DNA from: Candidatus Gastranaerophilales bacterium
GTDB lineage: Bacteria; Cyanobacteriota; Vampirovibrionia; Gastranaerophilales; Gastranaerophilaceae
Reading direction: 5' to 3'
Assembly: GCA_944324285.1 (NCBI GenBank)
Contig: CALUVR010000011.1
Coordinates: 1 to 64,000, forward strand
DNA: 64,000 nt
Shown here: in pieces, positions 3,780-64,000 of the stretch
Position numbering within the stretch: the stretch's first letter is position 1
Layout: each line of letters opens with the position of its first letter
The notes under the pieces: generated by a model
Database searches by the model: none
Seen by the model: the letters and a program-made list of their open reading frames with translations, nothing else
Told to the model about the DNA's origin: nothing
Made by a program: the position numbers and the translations under genes

Positions 3780-4496
3780 ATGAAAACTATTGCTATGTTT
3801 GAATCTAAGAACGGGGGGGGGGCTAAAGCCAAGCGAACACAAGGGTTTACACTAGCAGAAACCCTTATAACACTTGGCATTATTGGAGTTGTTACTTCAA
3901 TGACACTGCCCGGAATTATTACAAAACATAGGAATATGGTACTGAAAACCCAGTTTGATAAAGCACATTCAGTACTAAGACAGGTAGTGGAAAAAATGGT
4001 ATATGACAGCGGCGGGGATTTATACGGTATGTATTATTCACCTACTGATGAAAAAGGAGATGAATTAAGAGAAGCCTTTTTCAGCTATTTTAAGGGAACA
4101 ACAAACGAAGAAATTCTGGCTGAAATAAAACCGTATTATACCTCTGCCAAAAATTCTACAACAACAATACACAATTGCCCAGCAGGCTGCTGCATGAATC
4201 CCGGGGAAAAATCATACATAGTTGTTGACGGCATTATGTATCTGGCCTGTGCAAGAGATAACAGTATAAATTTTGCCTTTGATATTAATGGTAACAACAA
4301 AGGTCCTAATAAGTGGGGAATAGACCTTTTTGATTTCGATTTTGGCAACAATAACAAACTTACAGCATATCCTTGTACCAAACCATACTGTGATACTTAT
4401 TTCAGGACAACCTCTACAAATAATGTAAATGATGGTTTGGCATGTACACAATGTGCACTCGAAGATCCGGATTACTTTAAAAAAATTGATTACTAA
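3780..4496 (+). CDS. Prepilin-like protein with an in-frame G10 tract in its leader
   Basis: A 238-residue type IV prepilin / type II pseudopilin-like protein. Residues 23-40 are FTLAETLITLGIIGVVTS, the hydrophobic helix that follows the peptidase cleavage site G22|F23, with Glu at mature position 5. The mature part is cysteine-rich, with CPAGCC near 138, and ends in a DPDYFKKI motif shared with the gene at 37253. The leader is 22 residues, much longer than the 4-6 residues of the prepilins at 37253 and 42567, and contains a run of ten G (3813-3822) coding GGG-Ala. At this length the frame is open. The gene has an AAGGAG ribosome binding site and faces the prepilin peptidase gene, 22 bp away. 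Confidence 0.9.
   Translation: MKTIAMFESKNGGGAKAKRTQGFTLAETLITLGIIGVVTSMTLPGIITKHRNMVLKTQFDKAHSVLRQVVEKMVYDSGGDLYGMYYSPTDEKGDELREAFFSYFKGTTNEEILAEIKPYYTSAKNSTTTIHNCPAGCCMNPGEKSYIVVDGIMYLACARDNSINFAFDINGNNKGPNKWGIDLFDFDFGNNNKLTAYPCTKPYCDTYFRTTSTNNVNDGLACTQCALEDPDYFKKIDY
3813..3822 (+). repeat. Homopolymer G10 within a prepilin leader
   Basis: Ten consecutive G in the part of the gene encoding the cleaved leader. A change of one or two bases would shift the frame before the mature protein begins. This is the kind of tract that mediates slipped-strand phase variation in other bacteria. Confidence 0.95.
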
Positions 4497-4518: not shown

Positions 4519-5505
4519 CTAAATTAATAATATAAGCAGCCCGGCAAGAGCAAGTGCTGGCCCGAATGGAAGATAAGTCAAGCTGTCAGGATTTTTTAAA
4601 CTTTTAATTATCATTATGCACGACCAAATTCCAAGTGCAAACATAACCGTTATTGTTAACAAGACTACATAAATATTATCAAATATCGGCGATTTTTGAA
4701 GGAAAAAGTATATAAGCACATAAGTAAAAAAGAGTATGAGCGGAATTAGAATATGCCATTCTTTTTTTACAATAAGTTTTTTAAAAAAAAGAGGAAGCGT
4801 CAAAACGAGTTGTATAACAACACTCAAAATAAGGATTACAAGAATATTTTTCCAGCCGAAAACCGCGCCTAAACCTGCAGCGATATAAGTATCCCCTTCA
4901 CCGAAAGCACGGGAGCCTGCGAACAGATAACCAATTCTTGCGGCAATTTCCATAATAACTACACCCGCAATAATACCGGCAACAGAAACCGTAAGCGGAT
5001 TATTCAGAACCCATTCCGTTGAAATTTGAAACTGCGTGGAAGATTGTCCGACGCTTACAATCTGCATTATCATAAGGTATATTGCATATAAAAGCCCTGC
5101 TCCTACAAGAGTATAAGTATGCCCGTCAAAAACAACACGCTCTTTTATATCCGTCACGGAAATCACAATCAGCAAACTTGCGATTATAAAGCCGAAAATA
5201 GTTTCGACAGATATCCCGTATTTTAAAAACACAAGCACAAAAAATACACCTGTTATAAATTCCACAATCGGGTATTGAATACTGATTTTTTCTTTACAGA
5301 AATAACATTTTCCGCGAAGAAGAATGTAAGAAAGTATCGGGATATTGTGCCACCATTTTAATCTGTTACCGCATTTAGGGCATTTTGAAGGAGGCATAAC
5401 AATTGATTCTCCGCTGAATGCTCTTAATATAACTACATTTAAAAAACTGCCTATAACTGCTCCGATACAGAAAATAAACAGAAGTAAAATTATAAAAAAT
5501 AACAT
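4519..5505 (-). CDS. Prepilin peptidase / N-methyltransferase, A24 family
   Basis: A 328-residue polytopic membrane protein of the PilD/GspO type. The N-terminal domain contains GSFLNVVILR and paired zinc-binding cysteines (CPKC, CYFC). The catalytic aspartates lie in VTDIKERVVFD and FGEGDTYIA, the latter matching the GxGD motif. It cleaves prepilin leaders at G|F and N-methylates the new terminus. ATG 5505 has GAGGG 5 nt upstream; a TTG at 5517 is an alternative. It is longer than the usual 250-290 residues, mainly in the C-terminal membrane part. It is the only peptidase in the window and could process all five prepilin-like proteins seen here. Confidence 0.95.
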   Translation of the reverse strand: MLFFIILLLFIFCIGAVIGSFLNVVILRAFSGESIVMPPSKCPKCGNRLKWWHNIPILSYILLRGKCYFCKEKISIQYPIVEFITGVFFVLVFLKYGISVETIFGFIIASLLIVISVTDIKERVVFDGHTYTLVGAGLLYAIYLMIMQIVSVGQSSTQFQISTEWVLNNPLTVSVAGIIAGVVIMEIAARIGYLFAGSRAFGEGDTYIAAGLGAVFGWKNILVILILSVVIQLVLTLPLFFKKLIVKKEWHILIPLILFFTYVLIYFFLQKSPIFDNIYVVLLTITVMFALGIWSCIMIIKSLKNPDSLTYLPFGPALALAGLLILLI

Positions 5506-5530
5506 AATGTCCCTCAATTCTGATTAAAAA

Positions 5531-12671: not shown

Positions 12672-13062
12672 AGTTGACGAATTTTTACTTTTAAAGAACG
12701 TCATTACGGGGAGCTTAAAGAAACTGATTGAGCAGTAATGAGATTTTCTTTTTAATCCCCACTTTCTTTGTGAGGTTGCGCGCAAGCGCCGGAGGGATTC
12801 TATAATACCACTTCACTCCGCAACATTCACTTTTATTTACCCCTCACCCGAATTTCTAAGCTCACTAGCGTTCGCTAAGAAATTCTACCCTCTCCCTCAA
12901 GGGGCGAGGGTAGAGTGGCTACCCACCTTGAAAAGGAGGGTCGGGGGGGGGGATTAAAGCGGGAGCGTGGGAGAAAAAAGTCCCCTCTTCGTAAGGTGAT
13001 AGAGGGGAACATCCTTCACTCTTCTTACAAAGAAGGAAGTATTGGATTCTTTTTGCTAACAA
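12672..13062. repeat. Repeat-filled intergenic region with a G10 run
   Basis: It holds a degenerate TTTGTGAGG..GCGCAAGCGCCGGAGGG unit (about 12764-12795), a CCCTCACCC..CCCTCTCCCTCAAGGGGCGAGGG composite (about 12838-12912) interrupted by GAATTTCT..AGAAATTC, and a homopolymer of ten G at 12943-12952. No gene is visible; the G10 run is not inside a recognisable prepilin leader. Confidence 0.8.
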
Positions 13063-32434: not shown

Positions 32435-33189
32435 TTACAACCTTATAGGGTAATCATCAGGAATTGTAAAATTATTCTGCATTATCAAGACAGTACAAAC
32501 ATCTGCTCTGCTCCAATCTGCCAGAAGTGGATGGGCGGATTCTGATATACAGCCCTGAATTAACTCCTCCTTTGAGTAACGTGACGTATCAATTATTGAA
32601 GTCCAAAAAGCCCCCCTTGAACGATCCAAGCGAAATGAAAAAACATCTCTGCCATCAATTTTCGAAGTTTTATTCGGCTTCAAAAATACATAAAACTGCC
32701 CGCGGGTTCCACCTCGCGCATAAAAGCATAGTCCTGTTCCATTAACCAATTTCACACATTTATTCATATTTCCATAATTTGAGGAAACACCGCCATTAAA
32801 TCCATTGGAAACAAAATATGGAGAATTTTTTGGATATTCTTCCGTAACCTTGATATATTTTTTAAAATATTTATTAAAAATAGCTTCATTTTGTTCAAAA
32901 GAGTTGTCATTTCCGTCATTGTTGAATTCACCGGAAACCGTAAACTCAAAACCGACGCCATATTCAACTTCAGCCATTTTTACAGCATTTGAAATTAAAG
33001 AATAGCAGGTCTTTAACTTATTTTCAACAACACTTTTCTGATAATTTTGAATCAAACCAGGCAAAGTCATAGATGCAACAATGCCAATAATACCAAGGGT
33101 AACTAACACCTCGGCAAGTGTAAATGCTGATGTTAGCTTAGAATCAGGCGCCCCCCCCCCCGAAACGCAATAATACCAACGGATTTCAT
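32435..33189 (-). CDS. Prepilin-like protein, out of frame at a G11 tract (phase-off)
   Basis: ATG 33189 has a good AGGAGG site. The reading frame from it enters a run of eleven G (33151-33161 on the plus strand as C) and stops soon after at LILS. The frame of the mature protein resumes directly after the tract and runs to 32435: FTLAEVLVTLGIIGIVASMTLPG, then about 200 residues ending FTIPDDYPIRL. With 12 (or 9) G the two parts would join, giving a 22-residue leader ending SKLTSA|F. Position -1 would be Ala rather than the usual Gly. The rest of the gene is intact, so this looks switchable rather than decayed; a homopolymer sequencing error is the alternative. Confidence 0.82.
33151..33161 (-). 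repeat. Homopolymer G11 (C11 on the plus strand) in a prepilin leader
   Basis: Eleven identical bases at codon 10 of the prepilin gene that starts at 33189. The frame is open only when the count is a multiple of three. Confidence 0.95.
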
Positions 33190-37252: not shown

Positions 37253-37954
37253 ATGAAATACTCACAAGGATTTACTTTAGCAGAAATTCTGATTACACTC
37301 GGGATAATAGGTGTTATTGCGGCAATGACACTGCCGGTATTAACAGGGAAAACTAAATACAAAGAATTAGAAACAAGATACAAAGTAGCCTCAAATCTTC
37401 TACATAATGTTGTGAACTATTTTCATGCTAGAGAATTGATGATTTACGGCACCACATACTGTACGGCAAGTCAAAACTGCAACGGGCAGGCACCGGTATT
37501 TACAGAAGTTCTAGCGGAAGGCTTCAGCGGAATTCATGCACTTAACAAAGATTACGGGGCATTTGCAAAAGAAAAATATTACAACTTTTCAAATACAGTA
37601 AAGTTTAATGGCTCCCTTCTTGATGACGGGTATATGGAACTAAAAAACGGAATGAGCGTAATCGTTGAATCCGGTACCACCAACACCGTACCTATTATAT
37701 ATTTTGACATAAATGGAAGCGAAACAAAACCAAATAGAATGGGACACGATATTTTTGCATTTGTAATTGATAAAGGGGACAGGGTGTGTCCGCTGGGAGC
37801 AGAGGCTTGTACAACCCGTTCAAACTATATAGAAAGAACAGACGATTTCGCACAGAGCAGCTATTGCAACCCGACTTCTACAGATGCACAAAACGGTATT
37901 ACATGCGGATATTTTGCAAGCATTGATAAAGATTATTTTAAAAAAATAAAATAA
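37253..37954 (+). CDS. Prepilin-like protein with short leader
   Basis: 233 residues with the leader MKYSQG|F and the helix FTLAEILITLGIIGVIAAMTLPVL (shown here in two parts: FTLAEILITLG and IIGVIAAMTL). The mature domain has cysteines at several places (YCTASQNC, DRVCPLGAEAC) and ends IDKDYFKKIK, like the gene at 3780. Unlike 3780 it has a 6-residue leader and no G tract. GAGGAG lies 5 nt before ATG. It is divergent from a small HTH gene across a palindrome, so it is probably transcriptionally controlled. Confidence 0.88.
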   Translation: MKYSQGFTLAEILITLGIIGVIAAMTLPVLTGKTKYKELETRYKVASNLLHNVVNYFHARELMIYGTTYCTASQNCNGQAPVFTEVLAEGFSGIHALNKDYGAFAKEKYYNFSNTVKFNGSLLDDGYMELKNGMSVIVESGTTNTVPIIYFDINGSETKPNRMGHDIFAFVIDKGDRVCPLGAEACTTRSNYIERTDDFAQSSYCNPTSTDAQNGITCGYFASIDKDYFKKIK

Positions 37955-56675: not shown

Positions 56676-57443
56676 AACTCTCGCCTCTCTTCATTTAGTT
56701 CTCTTATATATATAAAGGATTAGAAAAATTTCCAATTTCAAGACTTTATCAATTCGTTACATTTATTAACATAAAGTATGTTATCGAAAGAACTTTTACC
56801 CCTCGCCTTTAAATGAGTACAATTCGGTATAGATGCCCTCCCCCCAACCCCTCTCCACTTGCTGGATACAAAGGGGGCAGACAAGGTAACGAGTCTTGCG
56901 ACTTTGTATGCCTTGTGCTGAGGGTGTCCGTTGGACAGGTGAGGGGTTCTCTTATATATTTGGGGCTTATGCAGCCCCAACCCCCGCACCGGATATTCTT
57001 TCTTTTTGTTGCGATGCAAAGCGCATTGCCGCCAGAGGGCATAAGCATACGCTATGCGTATGCGTGCCCGTTTAACGGCGGCAAGCAAGCAAAGAAAGAA
57101 TATCGGCTAAGAAAGAAAAACACACTATATTACAGCGCTGCTTCGCAGCGCAAGACTAAATGGATGTAGTTAAATGCTGACGCATTTAACCTTTGAGCCT
57201 CACTATCGCACTTCGTGCACGTTTGGCAACCTGCCTACGGCAGGTCTGAATCCCCCCTGCCCCCCCTTTACAAGGGGGGTAGTTCAGAACCTTCCTTGTA
57301 AGGGAGGTGGCGCGTAGGCGCCGGAAGGTTTTCTCCTTTACCCTTCACCCTACCCTATCCCATAGAGAGAGGGGTAAAAAATGTATTACAATAACATATA
57401 TTATGTTTTTGTGTTATAATAAACATATAATTAGGAGAGAAAA
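56676..57443. repeat. Hairpin-rich intergenic region, second copy of the 370-bp array
   Basis: The array itself is at 56955-57332. Before it come a CCCCTCCCCCC-like composite (about 56830-56880) and a GGGTGTCCG segment; after it a CCCTATCCCATAGAGAGAGGG piece (57343-57375). The last 70 bp contain the clpP promoter (GTTATAATAA at about 57412) and ribosome binding site. Open frames in the array are translations of repeats and not genes. Confidence 0.85.
56955..57332. repeat. Tandem-hairpin array, copy 2 of 2
   Basis: Same order of stems as the copy at 30978: TTGGGGCT-tatgc-AGCCCCAA (56960-56980), nested GCCGCC..GGCGGC enclosing GCATACGC-tat-GCGTATGC, GCGCTGC-ttc-GCAGCGC, GTTAAATGC-tgac-GCATTTAAC, GCAC-ttc-GTGC, ACCTGCC-tac-GGCAGGT, CCCCCCTTtacAAGGGGGG, and CCTTCC...GGAAGG closing the last unit. 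Two base pairs of the ACCTGCC stem are changed on both sides relative to copy 1. Confidence 0.88.
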
Positions 57444-58058
57444 ATGGATCAGCAAACTTATATGAGAATTATGGGCTATGTCCCGACGGTTATTGAAGCT
57501 TCTTCTCGCGGCGAAAGATCTTTTGATATCTTTTCAAGACTTTTAAGAGAAAGAATTATCTTCCTGGGTTCTGAAATTGATGACGAGGTTGCAAATTCAA
57601 TCGTCGCTCAATTATTACTTTTAGACAGCGAAAACAACGAAAAAGATATTATGCTCTATATAAACAGCCCGGGCGGCGTAATCACTGCCGGCATGGCTAT
57701 TTATGATACGATGAACCTTATTAAATCAGATGTTGCAACTATCTGCTTAGGTGATGCAGCATCTATGGGAGCTTTCCTTCTTTGCTCCGGCGCTAAAGGT
57801 AAAAGAATGGCACTCCCGAATTCAAGAATTATGATTCATCAGCCATTGGGCGGCGCTAAAGGTCAGGCTACTGATATTGAAATTGAAGCTAAAGAAATTC
57901 TTAGAATGAAAAATATGCTGATTGATATTATTGCCCAGAATTCAGGTCAGCCTTTTGATAAAGTTAAAGAGGACTGCGAACGCGACCACTTCCTCTCTGC
58001 ACAAGAAGCTCTTGAGTACGGGTTAATTGATAAAGTAGTCCAAAGAAACTCTTTGTAA
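57444..58058 (+). CDS. clpP: ATP-dependent Clp protease proteolytic subunit
   Basis: 204 residues. Catalytic triad: S107 in [10 protein letters not shown]132 in MIHQPLGG, and an Asp near 181. Family motifs [18 protein letters not shown] and LIDKVV are intact. It forms 14-mers that degrade unfolded proteins with ClpX/ClpA/ClpC. The N-terminus ([26 protein letters not shown], shortened here) is of the usual kind. AGGAGAG is 5 nt upstream. No clpX follows, so it is separate from its ATPase. A terminator follows. Confidence 0.97.
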
Positions 58059-58077
58059 CAAAACTTTACAAATTATC

Positions 58078-58113
58078 AAAAACATGCAATTCGTAAGAGT
58101 TGCATGTTTTTAT
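58078..58113 (+). terminator. Terminator of clpP
   Basis: AAAAACATGCAA and TTGCATGTTTTT pair around TTCGTAAGAG-type loop, with a following T run. Confidence 0.92.
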
Positions 58114-58167
58114 ATACATGTAAAGGTTAAAAAAGGTTAGTTAAAATTTAATGGTAGGAGTACGGTT

Positions 58168-58695
58168 ATGTCTCTATTGATGTTTCACAAGCGTCGGCTT
58201 GACATTATGCACCGGCAATACGAGTGCAATGCTAGGCTGAACGAAATCTCGATGAAAATCCACGACTTGCAGCAATACGCAAGCAATATTGCAGACGGCG
58301 GAATTTCAATGGCTGATATGATGAGCACACCGGCATCAATGTTCAACAGAACATTAATGTATATGACTTATGCACATAACGGTGCTTTAATGGGTGCGCA
58401 ATACAATATGCAGCAAATTATGATGATGCCGAACATTCAAGCACAAATGGCTCAAATGCAGGATCCAAATCAGCAGGCAATGTATCAGCAGTGGATTTTC
58501 CAGAATTTATATGCTCAGGAAAGAGAAAAATTCTCTAAACAGGAAACTAAACTCTTGCATGAGCAGGAAAAAGAATTAGAACACGAAAAAACAAGAATTG
58601 AAACCGAATTAAAAATGCTGCAGGCAGAACTCGAAGGAGTTAAACAGGGTGAACAAGATGCAGTTAAAAACTGGAAACCTGAGTTTGTAGCTTAA
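58168..58695 (+). CDS. Methionine- and glutamine-rich coiled-coil protein, unknown
   Basis: 175 residues with a TAGGAG site 7 nt upstream of ATG. The N-terminal 65 residues are amphipathic helix; the middle (about 58-115) is very rich in M, Q, N and A (ALMGAQYNMQQIMMMPNIQ); the C-terminal 60 residues form a charged coiled coil (EQEKELEHEKTRIETELKML). There is no signal peptide. It may be a structural or secreted helical protein; I do not recognise a family. A terminator follows, overlapping the end of the convergent 5-FTHF ligase gene. Confidence 0.75.
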   Translation: MSLLMFHKRRLDIMHRQYECNARLNEISMKIHDLQQYASNIADGGISMADMMSTPASMFNRTLMYMTYAHNGALMGAQYNMQQIMMMPNIQAQMAQMQDPNQQAMYQQWIFQNLYAQEREKFSKQETKLLHEQEKELEHEKTRIETELKMLQAELEGVKQGEQDAVKNWKPEFVA

Positions 58696-58737
58696 TAAAA
58701 AACATACCCCCTCAAACCTATCCTTAACTAACCATTT

Positions 58738-58765
58738 AAGGCTCACTTAACAGTGAGCCTTTTTA
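58738..58765. terminator. Terminator between the coiled-coil gene and the cyclo-ligase gene
   Basis: AAGGCTCACT and AGTGAGCCTT pair around TAAC; T-run on the plus side. It overlaps the last codons of the minus-strand gene. Confidence 0.85.
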
Positions 58766-59276
58766 CGTTTGTAATAATATAATCAACCTTTCTGTCAAAC
58801 TTTTCCCGCGGTAGAGTTTCCTGTATAAAATCGTCGTACATGGGGACAACTGTTACTGCATTACTGCATATCGGCAGAAATCTGTCATAGAACCCGCCGC
58901 CATATCCCAGTCTATATCCTTCAATATCCACAGCCAGCGCCGGAACAAATATTAAATCTAAAACATTAGGAGAAACAGCCTCTGAACACGGCTCATTTAT
59001 GTTAAAACCTGATTTTTTAAATTCAACATTATTTGAATAAGGACAAACCTCAAGTTCGTTTCCGCTAACCCGCGGGAAATAAAAAGTCTTATTATCATTG
59101 AGAAGCGGCAGAAGATTAATCTCAAACTTTGTCGGATAAAAAAGCATTACATTTTTTGCCTTTTCATAAGGTTGAAAATCTCTTATATTTTTACAAATAG
59201 CCGCACTTACACTTTCTGTATCAATTTCTTTGCGCAAATTTTTAAATTTAGTCCTTAGGTGTGATTTTTCCTGCAT
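58743..59276 (-). CDS. 5-formyltetrahydrofolate cyclo-ligase
   Basis: 177 residues from ATG 59276, which aligns with the family start QEKSHLRTKFKNLRKEI; the frame continues to 59363 inside the divergent gene and is not likely used. Motifs: FYPTKFEINLLPLL, DLIFVPALAVDIEGYRLGYGGGFYDR (shown in parts: VPALAVDIEGYRLGYGGG, FYDRFLP). It returns 5-formyl-THF to the active pool. There is no Shine-Dalgarno; a TATATT box (59288-59283) lies 6 nt before ATG with TTGTCT 17 bp upstream, inside the divergent cobO gene. Confidence 0.9.
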   Translation of the reverse strand: MQEKSHLRTKFKNLRKEIDTESVSAAICKNIRDFQPYEKAKNVMLFYPTKFEINLLPLLNDNKTFYFPRVSGNELEVCPYSNNVEFKKSGFNINEPCSEAVSPNVLDLIFVPALAVDIEGYRLGYGGGFYDRFLPICSNAVTVVPMYDDFIQETLPREKFDRKVDYIITNVKRLTVK

Positions 59277-59300
59277 AAATTTAATATATAATAAATAATT

Positions 59301-59879
59301 ATGACAGACAATTGTTCCAACAAATTGATAAACCCGAATTGGGCAAAACATGGCTATATTCAAGTTTATACAGGTGACGGGAAAGGTAAAACCACGGCGT
59401 CCCTAGGGCTTGCTATGAGGGCACTCGGAAGATGCTGGAAAGTTCTTATTATAATGTTTATGAAAGGCGGAGATGATTACGGGGAACTGAATTCCTTCAG
59501 AAACCTTTCGCCGGAAATTGCTCAGAATTTAACTATAATTCAGGCAGGTGCAGACAGAATCGTTTACCAGAATAACAAAACTGACGCTGATACCTCTGTT
59601 GTAAAGGAAGGCTGGGAACTTGCAAAACGCGTTATTAAAAACGATGAATACAATCTTGTTATCCTTGATGAAGCCAATATTGCAATAGATATGGGATTTA
59701 TTGATTTAGATGAAATGCTTGAAGTTCTGAAAAATAAACCTGAAGAAATGGAAATTGTTTTGACAGGCAGAAACGCTAAACAGGAAATCATTGATATTGC
59801 GCATCTTGTGTCGGAGATTAAGCCTGTAAAGCACTACTGGGATACAGGAATTGCAGCCCGCAAAGGCATTGAATACTAG
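59301..59879 (+). CDS. cobO: Cob(I)yrinic acid a,c-diamide adenosyltransferase (BtuR/CobO type)
   Basis: 192 residues. P-loop VYTGDGKGKTTAS near 23, FMKGGDDYGE, the NLVILDEANIAIDMGF Walker B region and VLTGRNAKQEII are typical of BtuR/CobO. It transfers the adenosyl group from ATP to cob(I)alamin precursors. The start has no Shine-Dalgarno and follows a TATAAT box (59287-59292) by 8 nt. Only 24 bp separate it from the divergent cyclo-ligase start. It indicates use or salvage of adenosylcobalamin, in line with the B12-binding radical SAM protein at 11256. Confidence 0.93.
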   Translation: MTDNCSNKLINPNWAKHGYIQVYTGDGKGKTTASLGLAMRALGRCWKVLIIMFMKGGDDYGELNSFRNLSPEIAQNLTIIQAGADRIVYQNNKTDADTSVVKEGWELAKRVIKNDEYNLVILDEANIAIDMGFIDLDEMLEVLKNKPEEMEIVLTGRNAKQEIIDIAHLVSEIKPVKHYWDTGIAARKGIEY

Positions 59880-60006
59880 CTGCCACGGATAATCTTCTTT
59901 AAACTGCCACCGGACATAGTCCGGCTCTCTTCTGCCGCACAAATTGTCCGCTATCTCGACTTTTGCAATGCGGACGGCTGGCAGTTTTTCGCTTTACTCG
60001 TCCGCT
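59880..60006 (-). pseudogene. Remnant of a second prepilin C-terminus
   Basis: On the minus strand, 59887-59923 encodes YVRWQFKEDYPW, nearly the same as the C-terminus of the adjacent prepilin gene (YDGWQFKEDYPW at 60007-60045). The two DNA copies differ at several third codon positions (TTT/TTC, GAA/GAG, GAT/GAC, CCG/CCT) yet keep the residues. There is no complete gene around it and no stop at the end of the motif. It looks like the 3' end of another prepilin gene. A CCGGAC-tat-GTCCGG hairpin sits inside. Confidence 0.6.
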
Positions 60007-60752
60007 CTACCAAGGATAGTCCTCTTTGAACTGCCAGCCGTCATATACAAACACCGCAAAACAGATTGTAGCATTTCCATCTACATAATTATCGTTTTTA
60101 CATTCTTCAATTGCCTCTTTTCGGGTTTCTTCATTCTTTATCCTTGCCTGACGAGGTGGAGATTGTAGATTTTTTCCACCTTCCCAGTATAATTCAGCTA
60201 TATCAAATACATCTTTCCCAAGAACATTTGGAGGTTTTTCGCAGTTTACATCCGCTGTGAATACAAAATACTGATTATTTGACCACATTGTTATGCACAT
60301 GCCGTCATTTAATCTAAAACGAGTGCCCCGTCCTACCGCATTATCTGTGTACCCGGCATCTCCGCCGCTTATGTTTCGAACTTTATAACTATTACCAAGA
60401 AGATTTGCTTTCATCTTTGAGGTTTGCAGATACGGAGCATAATACCTGTTAAAAAACTCTTCCTGTGTTATGTCGGAAGCCTGCTCTCCCGAAATCGGAT
60501 AATCCCAGTATTCGGAAGGTCCGAAATCATTTTTTGCACGCTGGGTCGCATTTGTCAATAAGGAGTATATTCTCTTTAACTTTGTTACTGTAACAGCTTT
60601 TTGATACTTATTTATTACTGTCGGCAGAGTCATTGATGCAACTACGCCAATTATACCAAGTGTTATCAGCACCTCGGCTAAGGTAAAGCCTTTAGCACTG
60701 AGGAATCCGGTCGCCCCCCCCCCCGAAATGCGCTCGTCACAGTCAGTTTCAT
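60007..60752 (-). CDS. Prepilin-like protein, out of frame at a G11 tract (phase-off)
   Basis: ATG 60752 (GGAGAAAG upstream) leads through MKLTVTSAF into eleven G (60714-60724 as C on the plus strand) and then out of frame. The mature frame resumes after the tract: GFTLAEVLITLGIIGVVASM, then about 200 residues with a pilin-like C-terminus ending DGWQFKEDYPW. With 12 (or 9) G the frame would be open, with a 22-residue leader ending SAKG|F. The distance from ATG to the first in-frame GTG in the helix (80 nt) equals that in the gene at 33189, and the bases around the tract are alike, so the two share a leader design. Confidence 0.82.
60714..60724 (-). repeat. Homopolymer G11 (C11 on the plus strand) in a prepilin leader
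   Basis: Eleven identical bases at codon 10 of the prepilin gene starting at 60752. The frame is open only at multiples of three. The flanks, gcatttc and cg, match those at 33151-33161 (gcgtttc and cg). Confidence 0.95.
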
Positions 60753-60983
60753 ATCTTTCTCCTATAAATTATACTGTCTGAATTACATTACTATTTTTTT
60801 ATTATAACGCATTTTCAATAAAATTTCAATTTAGTCTTAATGTTACTTATATCGCAGTTTACACTAAAAACGCAGACATGCCACCCTGAACTCGTTTCAA
60901 AATCTAACAGCATAGAGATGCTGAAATAAATTCAGCATGACACTATTTGTGTATCTGGTATAAACCGCGATAAAAGTCCCGTC

Positions 60984-61154
60984 TTAATAGCTTCTTCTCA
61001 TTAAATCCGAAAGCTTAATCTCTCCTGCTGCCTTCACTGCCTTAACTTTCGGCTTTTCTACAGGCTCCAAACTTTTGAACTGAGAAAGTCCTATCTTCTT
61101 TTCCTCACTTTTTATCATAAACATTTCTTTTAAAAAATTTACTATTTCTTGCAT
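60984..61154 (-). CDS. Small basic protein, unknown (56 residues)
   Basis: Chosen start ATG 61154 has GGAG 7 nt upstream; the frame extends to 61208. The product begins MQEIVNFLKEMFMIKSEEKK, a short amphipathic helix, then a lysine-rich segment (PVEKPKVKAVKAAGEIK) and ends LMRRSY. No known family. It lies between the phase-variable prepilin gene and the HEAT-like gene, which is divergent. Confidence 0.6.
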   Translation of the reverse strand: MQEIVNFLKEMFMIKSEEKKIGLSQFKSLEPVEKPKVKAVKAAGEIKLSDLMRRSY

Positions 61155-61269
61155 AGGGTAACTCCTCATTCGTTTCTTATAACCATATAATACATTAAAT
61201 CCAACCAATGTGCAAATTTCATTATACTTTATGTTATATTATTTATACGAAAATGCGGAGATGTAAGAT

Positions 61270-61980
61270 TTGAATACTTCTTATTATGAAACCTTAGACG
61301 AAAATTTTAATAAAGCCATGGAATTAATGAATAAAGAATTATCCCACGAGGAACTAATCTCAATGCTTAAAAACGGAAATATTGCAGAAAAACAGATTGC
61401 AGCGCTCAGGCTTGACACCATTAATTCTGAAAAAGATGCGGATATTCTAATCAACAACTTGACGGGTCAAGATGGGAAAATCAGAGAAGCTGTTTCTATG
61501 AGGATTAATGAATTTATGTCAAATCCTGACCTACTGCCTTTTTTTGAAAATACTAAAAGTTACGACATCTTTCTGGACGCAATTATTGATATTAATGCTA
61601 ATATCTGCCGGAATATTATCTCAGCCATATCTAACATGAAAAATAACTGTGAATTTTCTTCGTATTTCACCCGCAAACTGACTCAAAAAACTAGTGCTCT
61701 CCTTGAGGTTATAAAAGATTTCGATTTTCAGGAAGGAAAGTATAAGGTGAATAAAGAAGTCTTTAAGCTTTACTGGTGCCTTGAAACGCTCTATCATTTC
61801 ACGGAAAAAGTTGATTTTGCCGAATTAAAAAAAATTTTACTTACAGCTAAGGATATAAACGAATACACTATCCGTGAAAAAACCGCAAAAATCTTAACAA
61901 AACATTTCTCTGACCCTGATCTTGAAAACGCCCGTCAAGAACTGAAAAATGATCCCAATTACTATGTCCGCAGATTTTAG
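61270..61980 (+). CDS. HEAT-repeat-like helical protein
   Basis: 236 residues if it begins at TTG 61270; no ATG codon fits near the ribosome-binding sequence GGAG (9 nt before). The sequence is almost entirely paired helices of about 35 residues (SHEELISMLKNGNIAEKQIAALRL, shortened here, and DADILINNLTGQDGKIREAVSMRI), as in HEAT or armadillo repeats, with a final NDPNYYVRRF that resembles the VR motif ending HEAT repeats. A scaffold or protein-binding role is likely. No enzyme motif is visible. Confidence 0.75.
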   Translation: MNTSYYETLDENFNKAMELMNKELSHEELISMLKNGNIAEKQIAALRLDTINSEKDADILINNLTGQDGKIREAVSMRINEFMSNPDLLPFFENTKSYDIFLDAIIDINANICRNIISAISNMKNNCEFSSYFTRKLTQKTSALLEVIKDFDFQEGKYKVNKEVFKLYWCLETLYHFTEKVDFAELKKILLTAKDINEYTIREKTAKILTKHFSDPDLENARQELKNDPNYYVRRF

Positions 61981-62101
61981 TAAATAAAGTTTTGTTAAGC
62001 TTTTTATAAAAAATATATACAAAATAAGCAATTTTTCTCTACAGAATTTCTTTATATATATGGGAAAAGTAAATTACAGGGAAATGGAAAAGGAGTTAAA
62101 T

Positions 62102-62290
62102 ATGGCAAGAGTATTAATTTCAATGCCTGAAAGATTTTTGGACGAAATAGACAACATAGCAAATTCGGAAAACAGAACACGTTCCGAGTTAATCAGAGAA
62201 GCACTTAGAACTTATATGTACAGAAATCAAATCAGAAATTCTAAAAAGGCTGTAAAAAATGCAGAAATTTTAGAAACACTACTTGGCTAA
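62102..62290 (+). CDS. Ribbon-helix-helix (CopG-type) DNA-binding protein
   Basis: 62 residues from ATG 62102 with AAGGAG 6 nt upstream; an earlier ATG at 62060 would be unsupported. MARVLISMPERFLDEIDNIA followed by ENRTRSELIREALRTYM is a textbook ribbon-helix-helix: an N-terminal strand for the DNA groove and two helices. Such proteins are often antitoxins or autorepressors. A 60-residue open frame follows 47 bp later; whether the two form a pair is open. Confidence 0.88.
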   Translation: MARVLISMPERFLDEIDNIANSENRTRSELIREALRTYMYRNQIRNSKKAVKNAEILETLLG

Positions 62291-62337
62291 ATTAACAACT
62301 TGCTGTTATAATAAAAATAGGAAACACTGGGGGAAAT

Positions 62338-62520
62338 ATGGAAAATTTGGAATTAGACAAAAACGGTTACATTATGTCATCAATTGACGAGTACTTTGAA
62401 ATATTAGATCAAGAAGCTCAAAAACGTTCCAAAATGGTTGCAAAATCATTAACAAAGTACTTAAAAAGAGTTCACGCCGAAACTAAATTTGACAAACTTA
62501 AAACTTCGGCAGTAAACTAA
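62338..62520 (+). CDS. Small helical protein, unknown (60 residues)
   Basis: 60 residues, ATG with GGGGGAAAT upstream. It reads MENLELDKNGYIMSSIDEYFEILDQ and then a helical, basic half (KRSKMVAKSLTKYLKRVHAET). It follows the ribbon-helix-helix gene and precedes a terminator. It has no features of known toxins (no catalytic or nuclease motif). It could be a small regulatory protein. Confidence 0.65.
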   Translation: MENLELDKNGYIMSSIDEYFEILDQEAQKRSKMVAKSLTKYLKRVHAETKFDKLKTSAVN

Positions 62521-62573
62521 AAAAAATTAGAACCGTGTGTGTGCGCTTTACACGGGAAAACCGAAAAATTGTA

Positions 62574-62603
62574 AGACCTGCGAATAAATTCGCAGGTCTT
62601 TTG
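62574..62603. terminator. Terminator after the 60-residue gene
   Basis: AAGACCTGCGAA and TTCGCAGGTCTT pair around TAAA, followed by TTTG; it also ends transcription from the minus side. Confidence 0.92.
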
Positions 62604-62606
62604 TAT

Positions 62607-62972
62607 TTATTTATTTTTAGATTTGTTTTTCATTTTATCCAGAAACTTCATTTTTGACGAAATTAAATCAAGCATTTCCTGCCCTATTGGCATCTTACCC
62701 TTTGACAACAAAAACCTGATCGGAGGCTTTTTACTTTTTACGTTTGACACTTCCATATAGGTATCTGTCATAGCAATTTGACCTCTATAGACATCCATAG
62801 CAGGATATGTATCATAAATTATATTTATACTGTCATGCTTATTTTTGCCTGCTCGAAAACTTTTTGCAGCATCATAACCTTCCGAACCAAGTTCTTCAGC
62901 GAACTTTTTTATTGTATTTGCGGACAACTTCCCGCTGAATGAGGGCTGCGCGTTTATTTTTTGAATTGCCAT
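62607..62972 (-). CDS. Hypothetical small protein with N-terminal SFSGK motif
   Basis: 121 residues from ATG 62972 (AGGAG 7 nt upstream). It begins MAIQKINAQPSFSGKLSANT; the SFSG segment fits the aromatic-G motif near the N-terminus shared by other small unknown proteins of the window. The middle (about 45-95) is beta-rich (SINIIYDTYPAMDVYRGQIA) and the C-terminus is a basic helix (MKFLDKMKNKSKNK). No signal peptide. Function unknown. Confidence 0.7.
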   Translation of the reverse strand: MAIQKINAQPSFSGKLSANTIKKFAEELGSEGYDAAKSFRAGKNKHDSINIIYDTYPAMDVYRGQIAMTDTYMEVSNVKSKKPPIRFLLSKGKMPIGQEMLDLISSKMKFLDKMKNKSKNK

Positions 62973-62995
62973 AACTATTCTCCTGAATTTATACA

Positions 62996-63033
62996 AAAAG
63001 AGCTGACATAATTTATATATCAGCTCTTTCTTT
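62996..63033 (-). terminator. tuf terminator
   Basis: AAAGAGCTGA and TCAGCTCTTT form a stem downstream of tuf, with T runs on both strands. Confidence 0.88.
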
Positions 63034-63063
63034 AATTGTTAAACGGTTTGTTTATCAATAAAA

Positions 63064-64000
63064 TTATTCAATAATTTTATCAACAACACCAGCACCAACT
63101 GTGTGACCGCCTTCACGGATAGCAAATCTCATACCTTCTTCGATTGCTACAGGAGCGATAAGTTCAACTTCCATAACAACGTTATCACCAGGCATTACCA
63201 TTTGACCGTCGAATTTGATAGTACCGGTAACGTCAGTAGTTCTGATGTAGAACTGTGGACGGTAACCAGGGAAGAACGGAGTATGACGACCGCCTTCTTC
63301 TTTAGTCAATACGTAAACGTTTGCTGTGAATTTAGTGTGTGGGTGGATTGAACCAGGTTTAGCAAGAACCTGACCGCGCTGAATATCAGTTTTGTCGATA
63401 CCACGGAGCAATGCACCGATGTTATCACCAGCTTGACCCTGGTCAAGAGATTTTCTGAACATTTCAACACCGGTAACAGTTGTTTTCTTAGTATCGCCAA
63501 GACCAACGATTTCAACTTCATCACCAACTTTAACAACACCACGTTCAACTCTACCAGTTGCAACAGTACCACGACCTGTGATAGAGAATACGTCTTCAAC
63601 AGGCATCAAGAACGGTTTGTCTAAGTCACGAACAGGTGTAGGGAAGTAAGAATCGATAGCATCCATCAATTCCCAAATTTTGTCAACCCATTTATCTTGA
63701 CCGCGAGCGATTGACGGATTAGCTTGAGCAGCTTCAAGAGCTTTCAAAGCAGAACCGTGGATGAACGGAATGTTGTCGCCGTCGAATTCGTAAGAAGAAA
63801 GGAGTTCTCTAACTTCCATTTCAACGAGTTCTAACAATTCAGGATCATCAACCATATCGCATTTATTCAAGAATACAACGAGGTTAGGAACGCCAACCTG
63901 ACGAGCTAACAGGATGTGTTCACGAGTCTGAGGCATAGCACCGTCAGTAGCAGCAACAACGAGGATTGCGCCGTCCATCTGAGCTGCACCTGTAATCATG
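63064..64000 (-). CDS. tuf: Elongation factor Tu, C-terminal part (5' end beyond the window)
   Basis: 312 residues are visible; about 85 N-terminal residues, with the first GTPase motifs, lie outside the right edge. Seen: GTPase motif NKCDMVDD, the second domain ([21 protein letters not shown], split here: [21 protein letters not shown]) and the third domain ending VVDKIIE. It brings aminoacyl-tRNA to the ribosome. It has clearly better codon use than its neighbours, as expected of a highly expressed gene. Confidence 0.97.

Follow-up and report, generated by a model that had tools for sequence, protein, structure and literature searches.

A G11 tract in a prepilin leader of an uncultured gut bacterium probably acts as a slipped-strand phase switch within an exchangeable 5′ cassette

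A prepilin gene of a Candidatus Gastranaerophilales genome carries a run of 11 Gs in its leader and is out of frame as assembled. This tract is probably a slipped-strand phase switch, located in a leader that is cleaved from the prepilin and carried on an exchangeable 5′ cassette. On such a reading of the sequence, single cells most likely switch individual surface proteins on by the loss or gain of one G. Here we describe the gene, the family to which it belongs, and the evidence on tract length and cassette exchange, and we weigh four other explanations.

RESULTS

An out-of-frame prepilin gene with a G11 tract

The window, a stretch of 64,000 nt, belongs to contig C11; the genome measures 2.03 Mb and is 99% complete. 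The gene (hereafter the 60.7k gene) lies on its minus strand. Upstream are a promoter-like TTGAAA (60829–60824) and TATAAT (60806–60801) with 17-bp spacing (60801–60829), predicted from consensus match alone; in an alignment, both line up with matching elements in L120, the corresponding locus of a relative. A Shine–Dalgarno (SD)-like AGGAG (60759–60763) stands just 5′ of the ATG (60752–60750). The leader before the tract is 28 nt long (60725–60752) and encodes MKLTVTSAF plus one further C. The 11 Gs that the initial annotation had placed at 60714–60724 are indeed there, on the minus strand, and the prepilin gene is indeed out of frame. A 26-nt spacer (60688–60713), open in the ‘on’ frame, leads to the cleavage site, and the mature prepilin (FTLAEVLITLGIIGVVASMTLP...; 60007–60687) begins with FTLAE at 60687 and runs for 226 aa to a stop at 60007; its orthologues are L120–L128.

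At G11 the gene reads MKLTVTSAFRGGGRPDSSVLKALP and then a stop, and translation ends after 24 codons. The prepilin frame (...KGFTLAEVLITLGIIGVVASMTLP...) requires a tract length divisible by three (9 or 12 Gs), at which the leader is stop-free; hence loss of two Gs or gain of one reopens the frame to a complete prepilin. The repeat thus lies between the start and the functional protein and shifts the frame, as at a contingency locus. Overlapping G8 matches number 14 in the window, compared with 0.39 expected from shuffles, none of which reached 14. GTG 60672 was considered as the true start and rejected, as this codon lies within FTLAEV and its use would remove the cleavage site.

The encoded protein resembles type IV prepilins at its N-terminus. 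The segment KG^FTLAEVLITLGIIGVVASMTLP (about 60690–60622) contains G/A before the cleavage site, FTLAE with Glu5, and a hydrophobic helix, and FTLAE is unchanged in 10 orthologues. The Pfam N_methyl profile scored 17.3 bits (E 0.0035; cut-off 21.2) on the gene without its leader, and sister genes at 3780 and 37253 passed the cut-off. An AlphaFold model, poor at a pLDDT of 57, places a helix at residues 4–56, followed by strands; a Foldseek search with this model gave no match at E < 0.001 and matched no pilin structure. The close relatives of the pilin come from Candidatus Gastranaerophilales MAGs.

The genome also encodes processing and assembly functions. A prepilin peptidase gene (4519–5517, minus strand) gives the single PF01478 match in the genome (at 4798–5187) and stands tail to tail with a poly-G prepilin gene (3780–4496, plus strand). 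Four matches to the T2SSE ATPase family (PF00437) exceed the cut-off, and both a peptidase and an assembly ATPase are thus present.

A family of poly-G prepilins

FTLAE sites number 83 in the genome, against 3 for a reversed-pattern control. Runs of at least 9 Gs number about 35 (counted by eye), and 20 of them are found in prepilin leaders, 27–35 nt past the expected start. The leaders fall into a few related types: usual ones read MKTIDMTEF..GGG, and others begin MQN or MLK. Leader tracts of 7 or 8 Gs were not seen in this genome, save one truncated at a contig end. Despite an open ‘on’ frame, just one of the 20 poly-G prepilins is in frame, the 3780–4496 gene with its G10 at 3813–3822. At two poly-G prepilins (L043, one of the 20, and L124), ATA occupies the expected leader start codon. 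Two contigs, C24 and C42, break and overlap at one poly-G prepilin (the end of L058 and the start of L119), possibly owing to tract-length differences in the reads or to repeats.

Poly-G prepilins occurred in 14 of 39 relatives searched, mainly of the same genus, and the control pattern in none; the search patterns required at least 9 Gs, so that shorter tracts would be missed. Poly-G leaders beginning ATGCAA are numerous in two genomes (38 in G003 and 63 in G012). A search of viral contigs for the poly-G prepilin pattern gave no match. Almost all poly-G prepilins that were read have their own start, the great majority with an SD-like motif.

Over all genomes, 103 genes have the leader fused to the prepilin. 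The frame is correct in nine; removal of one G would restore it in 77, and addition of one G in 17. Under equally likely frames, 9 of 103 has a probability of 4e-9, a value that overstates independence given shared ancestry. Across spacers of at least 45 nt, the ‘on’ frame has no stop in 2973 codons and the other two frames have 264 and 185, although the absence of stops is partly true by definition, the fused class being defined by one open frame. More telling, nearly all leaders with FTLAE close behind belong to this class, the exceptions being those whose pilin starts independently. A protein-level constraint on leader codons was also considered and set aside: entropies at codon positions 1, 2 and 3 are 0.53, 0.81 and 0.85 bits, with no clear synonymous pattern.

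The 60.7k gene has a counterpart in the window with the same layout, a second out-of-frame prepilin gene on the minus strand (ATG 33189, FTLAE 33124; hereafter the 33.1k gene) with a G11 tract at 33151–33161 and a mature part (32435–33124) that matches DUF6613. The initial annotation had treated the two as a pair. The distance of 80 nt from ATG to a conserved GTG was confirmed in both (60752 to 60672; 33189 to 33109). Tract position and context were said to be equal; this is so for the length of 28 nt before the tract and for the CG after it, but not for the preceding bases, which are GCATTTC in the 60.7k gene and GCGTTTC in the 33.1k gene. A private common source of the two leaders did not stand up: their identity of 0.62 ranks 87th among 210 leader pairs within the genome, for which the median is 0.60. 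Both genes share the layout 28 + 11 + 26, and a third gene (L058) also has 28 and 26 nt. Judged from these comparisons, the two leaders are ordinary family members and no special pair.

Copies with identical flanks differ in tract length

A comparison of copies provides a view of tract-length change. Two tandem genes at L359 (G006) carry G12 and G10 on identical or near-identical flanks, and near-identical tandem genes at L154 (G031) carry G9 (off) and G10 (on). Likewise, identical leaders have 10, 11, 11 and 12 Gs in G009, and 10 and 11 Gs in G012. The repeat is thus more variable in length than its flanks, as at contingency loci, in a comparison between copies rather than within one lineage. 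Such length differences on identical flanks support slippage as the source of the variation.

G11 nevertheless dominates, with 68 of 119 leader tracts and 51 of the 61 split elements described below. This peak would fit tracts that mutate fast and have the same most common length in a mixed population, and a function of fixed length is the main rival. In that rival, RNA polymerase or the ribosome would slip on G11 in a programmed manner, giving each cell a constant in-frame fraction and no heritable switching. The striking uniformity of G11, which includes most of the 63 cassettes of G012, speaks for it, as does the share of out-of-frame genes (77 of 94) that removal of exactly one G would restore, the outcome expected of a directional slip. 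Against it, length differs among copies with identical flanks, a few genes are in frame already, and ‘on’ lengths of both 9/12 and 8/11 exist, the 60.7k and 33.1k genes being among those that need one G more. We therefore regard programmed slippage as unlikely.

The leader is probably part of an exchangeable 5′ unit

The comparison with the relative at L120 shows where similarity ends. L120 is collinear with window positions 57391–63727 at 84–94% nucleotide identity, and BLAST similarity runs up to the FTLAE codon (60687), breaks off precisely there and restarts at 60984. Between these points the promoter can be aligned, but the 5′UTR, leader and spacer cannot (spacer of 26 nt in the window vs 118 nt in L120). 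The converse is seen in the L359 neighbours, which are the same or nearly so for about 75–80 nt 5′ of the tract and 85 nt 3′ of it and then fall to chance level; a promoter-leader-helix block of about 160 nt thus stands on two genes with unrelated mature domains, which are 26% identical past 30 aa. In G002, one identical 27-nt spacer is found in L341 and L342, whose mature proteins differ. The spacer of the 60.7k gene is 81% like this one, and its mature protein is 0.27 and 0.21 identical to theirs.

The initial annotation had proposed that leader cassettes are reused on differing mature proteins and had suggested a comparison of leaders with mature parts. Reuse is supported at the family level, by L120, L359, L341/L342, the split elements and the glycosyltransferase genes. 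A comparison of the suggested kind, over 78 genes, gave a correlation of r = 0.09 between leader and mature identity, compared with r = 0.36 for a 30-nt control segment (mature codons 29–38) that overlaps the compared mature region by a few codons. Restricting the comparison to pairs whose mature parts are at least 0.75 identical gives an identity of 0.79 for the control segment (background 0.46) and of 0.65 for the leader (background 0.62). The nearest leader lay in the same genome in 31% of cases (mature parts, 25%; shuffled labels, 15%); as 31% is barely above the 25% for mature parts, we do not claim strong homogenization of leaders by genome.

Some leaders (L042, L043, L046, L095 and L131) contain two FTLAE motifs a short way apart, which may be left over from earlier prepilin starts. 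In four other cases (L218, L235, L241 and L290), the leader is fused onto a pilin that retains its own start. Both kinds look like joined units. As delimited by these alignments, exchange involves more than the leader: the unit extends from the 5′UTR or promoter up to, or into, the N-terminal helix.

Could the family instead descend from one prepilin ancestor, with a constrained leader and a diverging mature part, so that the cassette never moves? Split elements are 82% identical across unrelated pilins, and constraint alone could suffice for this. At L120, however, the mature gene and both flanks are conserved and the leader and spacer are not, which is the reverse of constraint, and the identity at L359 ends abruptly at both sides of the common block. 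Moreover, glycosyltransferases do not descend from prepilins, and both the tandem FTLAE motifs and the leaders fused in frame to genes that retain their own start resemble insertions. Common descent without movement is accordingly improbable, and an exchangeable cassette remains the preferred reading.

Leaders on glycosyltransferase genes and a split form

Poly-G leaders are fused not to prepilins alone but also to GT2-like genes (L034 and L208), RgpF genes (L048 and L185) and others. At two GT11 genes (L041 in the same genome and L226 in G008), one tract class brings the end of the leader ORF onto the enzyme's start codon (TGATG/ATGA overlap), which suggests translational coupling. The SD of the L041 enzyme lies inside a GCCTC/GGAGGC hairpin.

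A split form, in which a separate poly-G mini-ORF precedes a pilin that has a start of its own, was found at 61 examined loci, mostly of G003 and G012 (L188, L213–L222 and L252–L311), with L040 in the same genome as the 60.7k gene, L123 and L245. At these loci, nucleotide identity of the control element is 0.82 and amino acid identity of the pilins 0.29. Across 54 aligned copies, an anti-SD CCTCC downstream of the tract is invariant, and a CCGTG..CACGG hairpin with a T-rich stretch behind it is nearly so. In the predicted consensus fold, the G-tract pairs with CCTCC (CCUCC in the RNA), which is itself complementary to the GGAGG SD of the pilin; most pairs are invariant and covariation is weak. 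With 12 Gs the mini-ORF traverses CCTCC; with 11 or 10 it usually stops 5′ of it. L123 stands before an orthologue of the 60.7k pilin; here an alternative frame crosses a TCAGCCA...TGGCTGA-T6 hairpin and stops at the hairpin end. Tentatively, the split form may be a phase-variable attenuator, in which the G count would set how far the ribosome reaches into the control region and so free the pilin start or not; the G-tract would then serve as both slippage site and RNA-pairing arm.

The fold raises the alternative that the G-tract acts chiefly at the RNA level, as the target of a C-rich small RNA or through local pairing, with the effect on frame secondary. There is a published precedent: RepG controls the Helicobacter pylori tlpB-hp0102 leader through a variable G-repeat, in a graded manner (PMC8295292). 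As there, a variable G-repeat in an mRNA leader would tune expression of surface-glycan genes; unlike there, where a small RNA acts on the mRNA leader, the tract here is translated. The pairing of the G-tract with CCUCC, also complementary to the pilin SD, further favours RNA-level action. Yet ordinary translation of fused genes such as the 60.7k gene gives no pilin at G11, irrespective of events at the RNA level, and one frame is strictly open over thousands of codons, which means that translation through the tract matters. In addition, an Rfam search with the split and coupled elements returned no match. Action at the RNA level in place of a frame switch is therefore quite improbable.

A pseudogene or a homopolymer assembly error is very improbable: homopolymer counts can be off by one and some contigs end at tracts, but the frame past the tract is intact across long spacers, the pattern recurs across many genomes and assemblies, and ‘on’ lengths differ by gene, so that one systematic miscount would not leave nearly all genes out of frame.

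DISCUSSION

The slippage switch that we favour would operate in several steps. Replication slippage would alter the G count in single cells, such that each cell produces one or a few pilins from a large repertoire. Signal cleavage would then remove the tract from the finished pilin, and homologous recombination via leader and helix sequences would relocate the cassette. Because the cassette also precedes glycosyltransferase genes, a single mechanism would vary both the pilins and their possible glycans.

Slippage phase variation is known mostly from cultured pathogens. Neisseria has few opa genes per genome. In these, the leader-peptide region contains CTCTT repeats (PMC3960869). As with opa, we see a multigene family of surface proteins with a slippage-prone leader-peptide repeat in each copy, in which the frame would determine on or off and recombination would reshuffle diversity. 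Unlike opa, which encodes outer-membrane proteins and has pentamer repeats, the present family has poly-G and prepilins with a class III signal, numbers about 20 or more per genome, and shares its leader with enzymes. The best explanation by this analogy is a switch that would work like that of opa but is larger and modular.

Poly-G contingency loci are known from Campylobacter and Neisseria, for example pilC and glycosyltransferase genes, and a flagellin-glycan gene of C. jejuni is reportedly another. Similar to these loci, G-tracts of about 8–12 put surface and glycan genes in or out of frame here; different from them, where the tract lies within individual genes, tract and leader form a common unit on unrelated genes. 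In Neisseria pilE/pilS, pilin antigenic variation arises by recombination, and in both systems a constant pilin N-terminus is joined to differing C-terminal parts, here probably by recombination as well. Unlike in pilE/pilS, every fused gene here starts independently with a leader of its own, and what is exchanged is the 5′ part. Gene conversion of the pilE/pilS type, with silent promoterless cassettes and one expression locus, is not supported, as no such cassettes were seen in a non-exhaustive search for start-less partial copies.

If the proposed switch is real, contingency genes acting on pilins and glycosyltransferases would be numerous in an uncultured gut relative of the cyanobacteria. 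The switch itself would be packaged as an exchangeable 5′ cassette, so that its spread between unrelated genes becomes testable, as does cell-by-cell surface diversification in gut commensals. Most poly-G pilins are out of frame in the consensus assembly and will therefore be missed or truncated by annotation pipelines. A literature search found no paper combining ‘Gastranaerophilales’ with ‘phase variation’ and none pointing to poly-G prepilin leaders, an absence that is not proof of novelty.

Several observations concern prepilins and G-runs outside this family. In the genome of the 60.7k gene, 39 of the 59 prepilins without poly-G have a divergent small Cro/CI-type HTH gene (Pfam HTH_3) within at most 500 nt (window 37253–37954 and L063–L118), compared with 0 of 22 poly-G prepilins (Fisher P 1.5e-8). 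Palindromic repeats often lie 5′ of the start in prepilins without poly-G. HTH gene and poly-G are apparently two mutually exclusive regimes over one pilin repertoire. Elsewhere, G9–G10 runs outside leaders (window 12943–12952, L045, L056, L060 and L061) lie in intergenic GC-rich palindromic repeats (CCCTCTCCC...), and a G16 (L033, same genome) lies upstream of an aldo/keto reductase gene. Finally, a long ORF in this genome (L055) carries a G12 close to its 5′ end; the tract follows a signal-peptide-like stretch, and 425 aa are open past it; the ORF perhaps encodes a phase-variable secreted protein.
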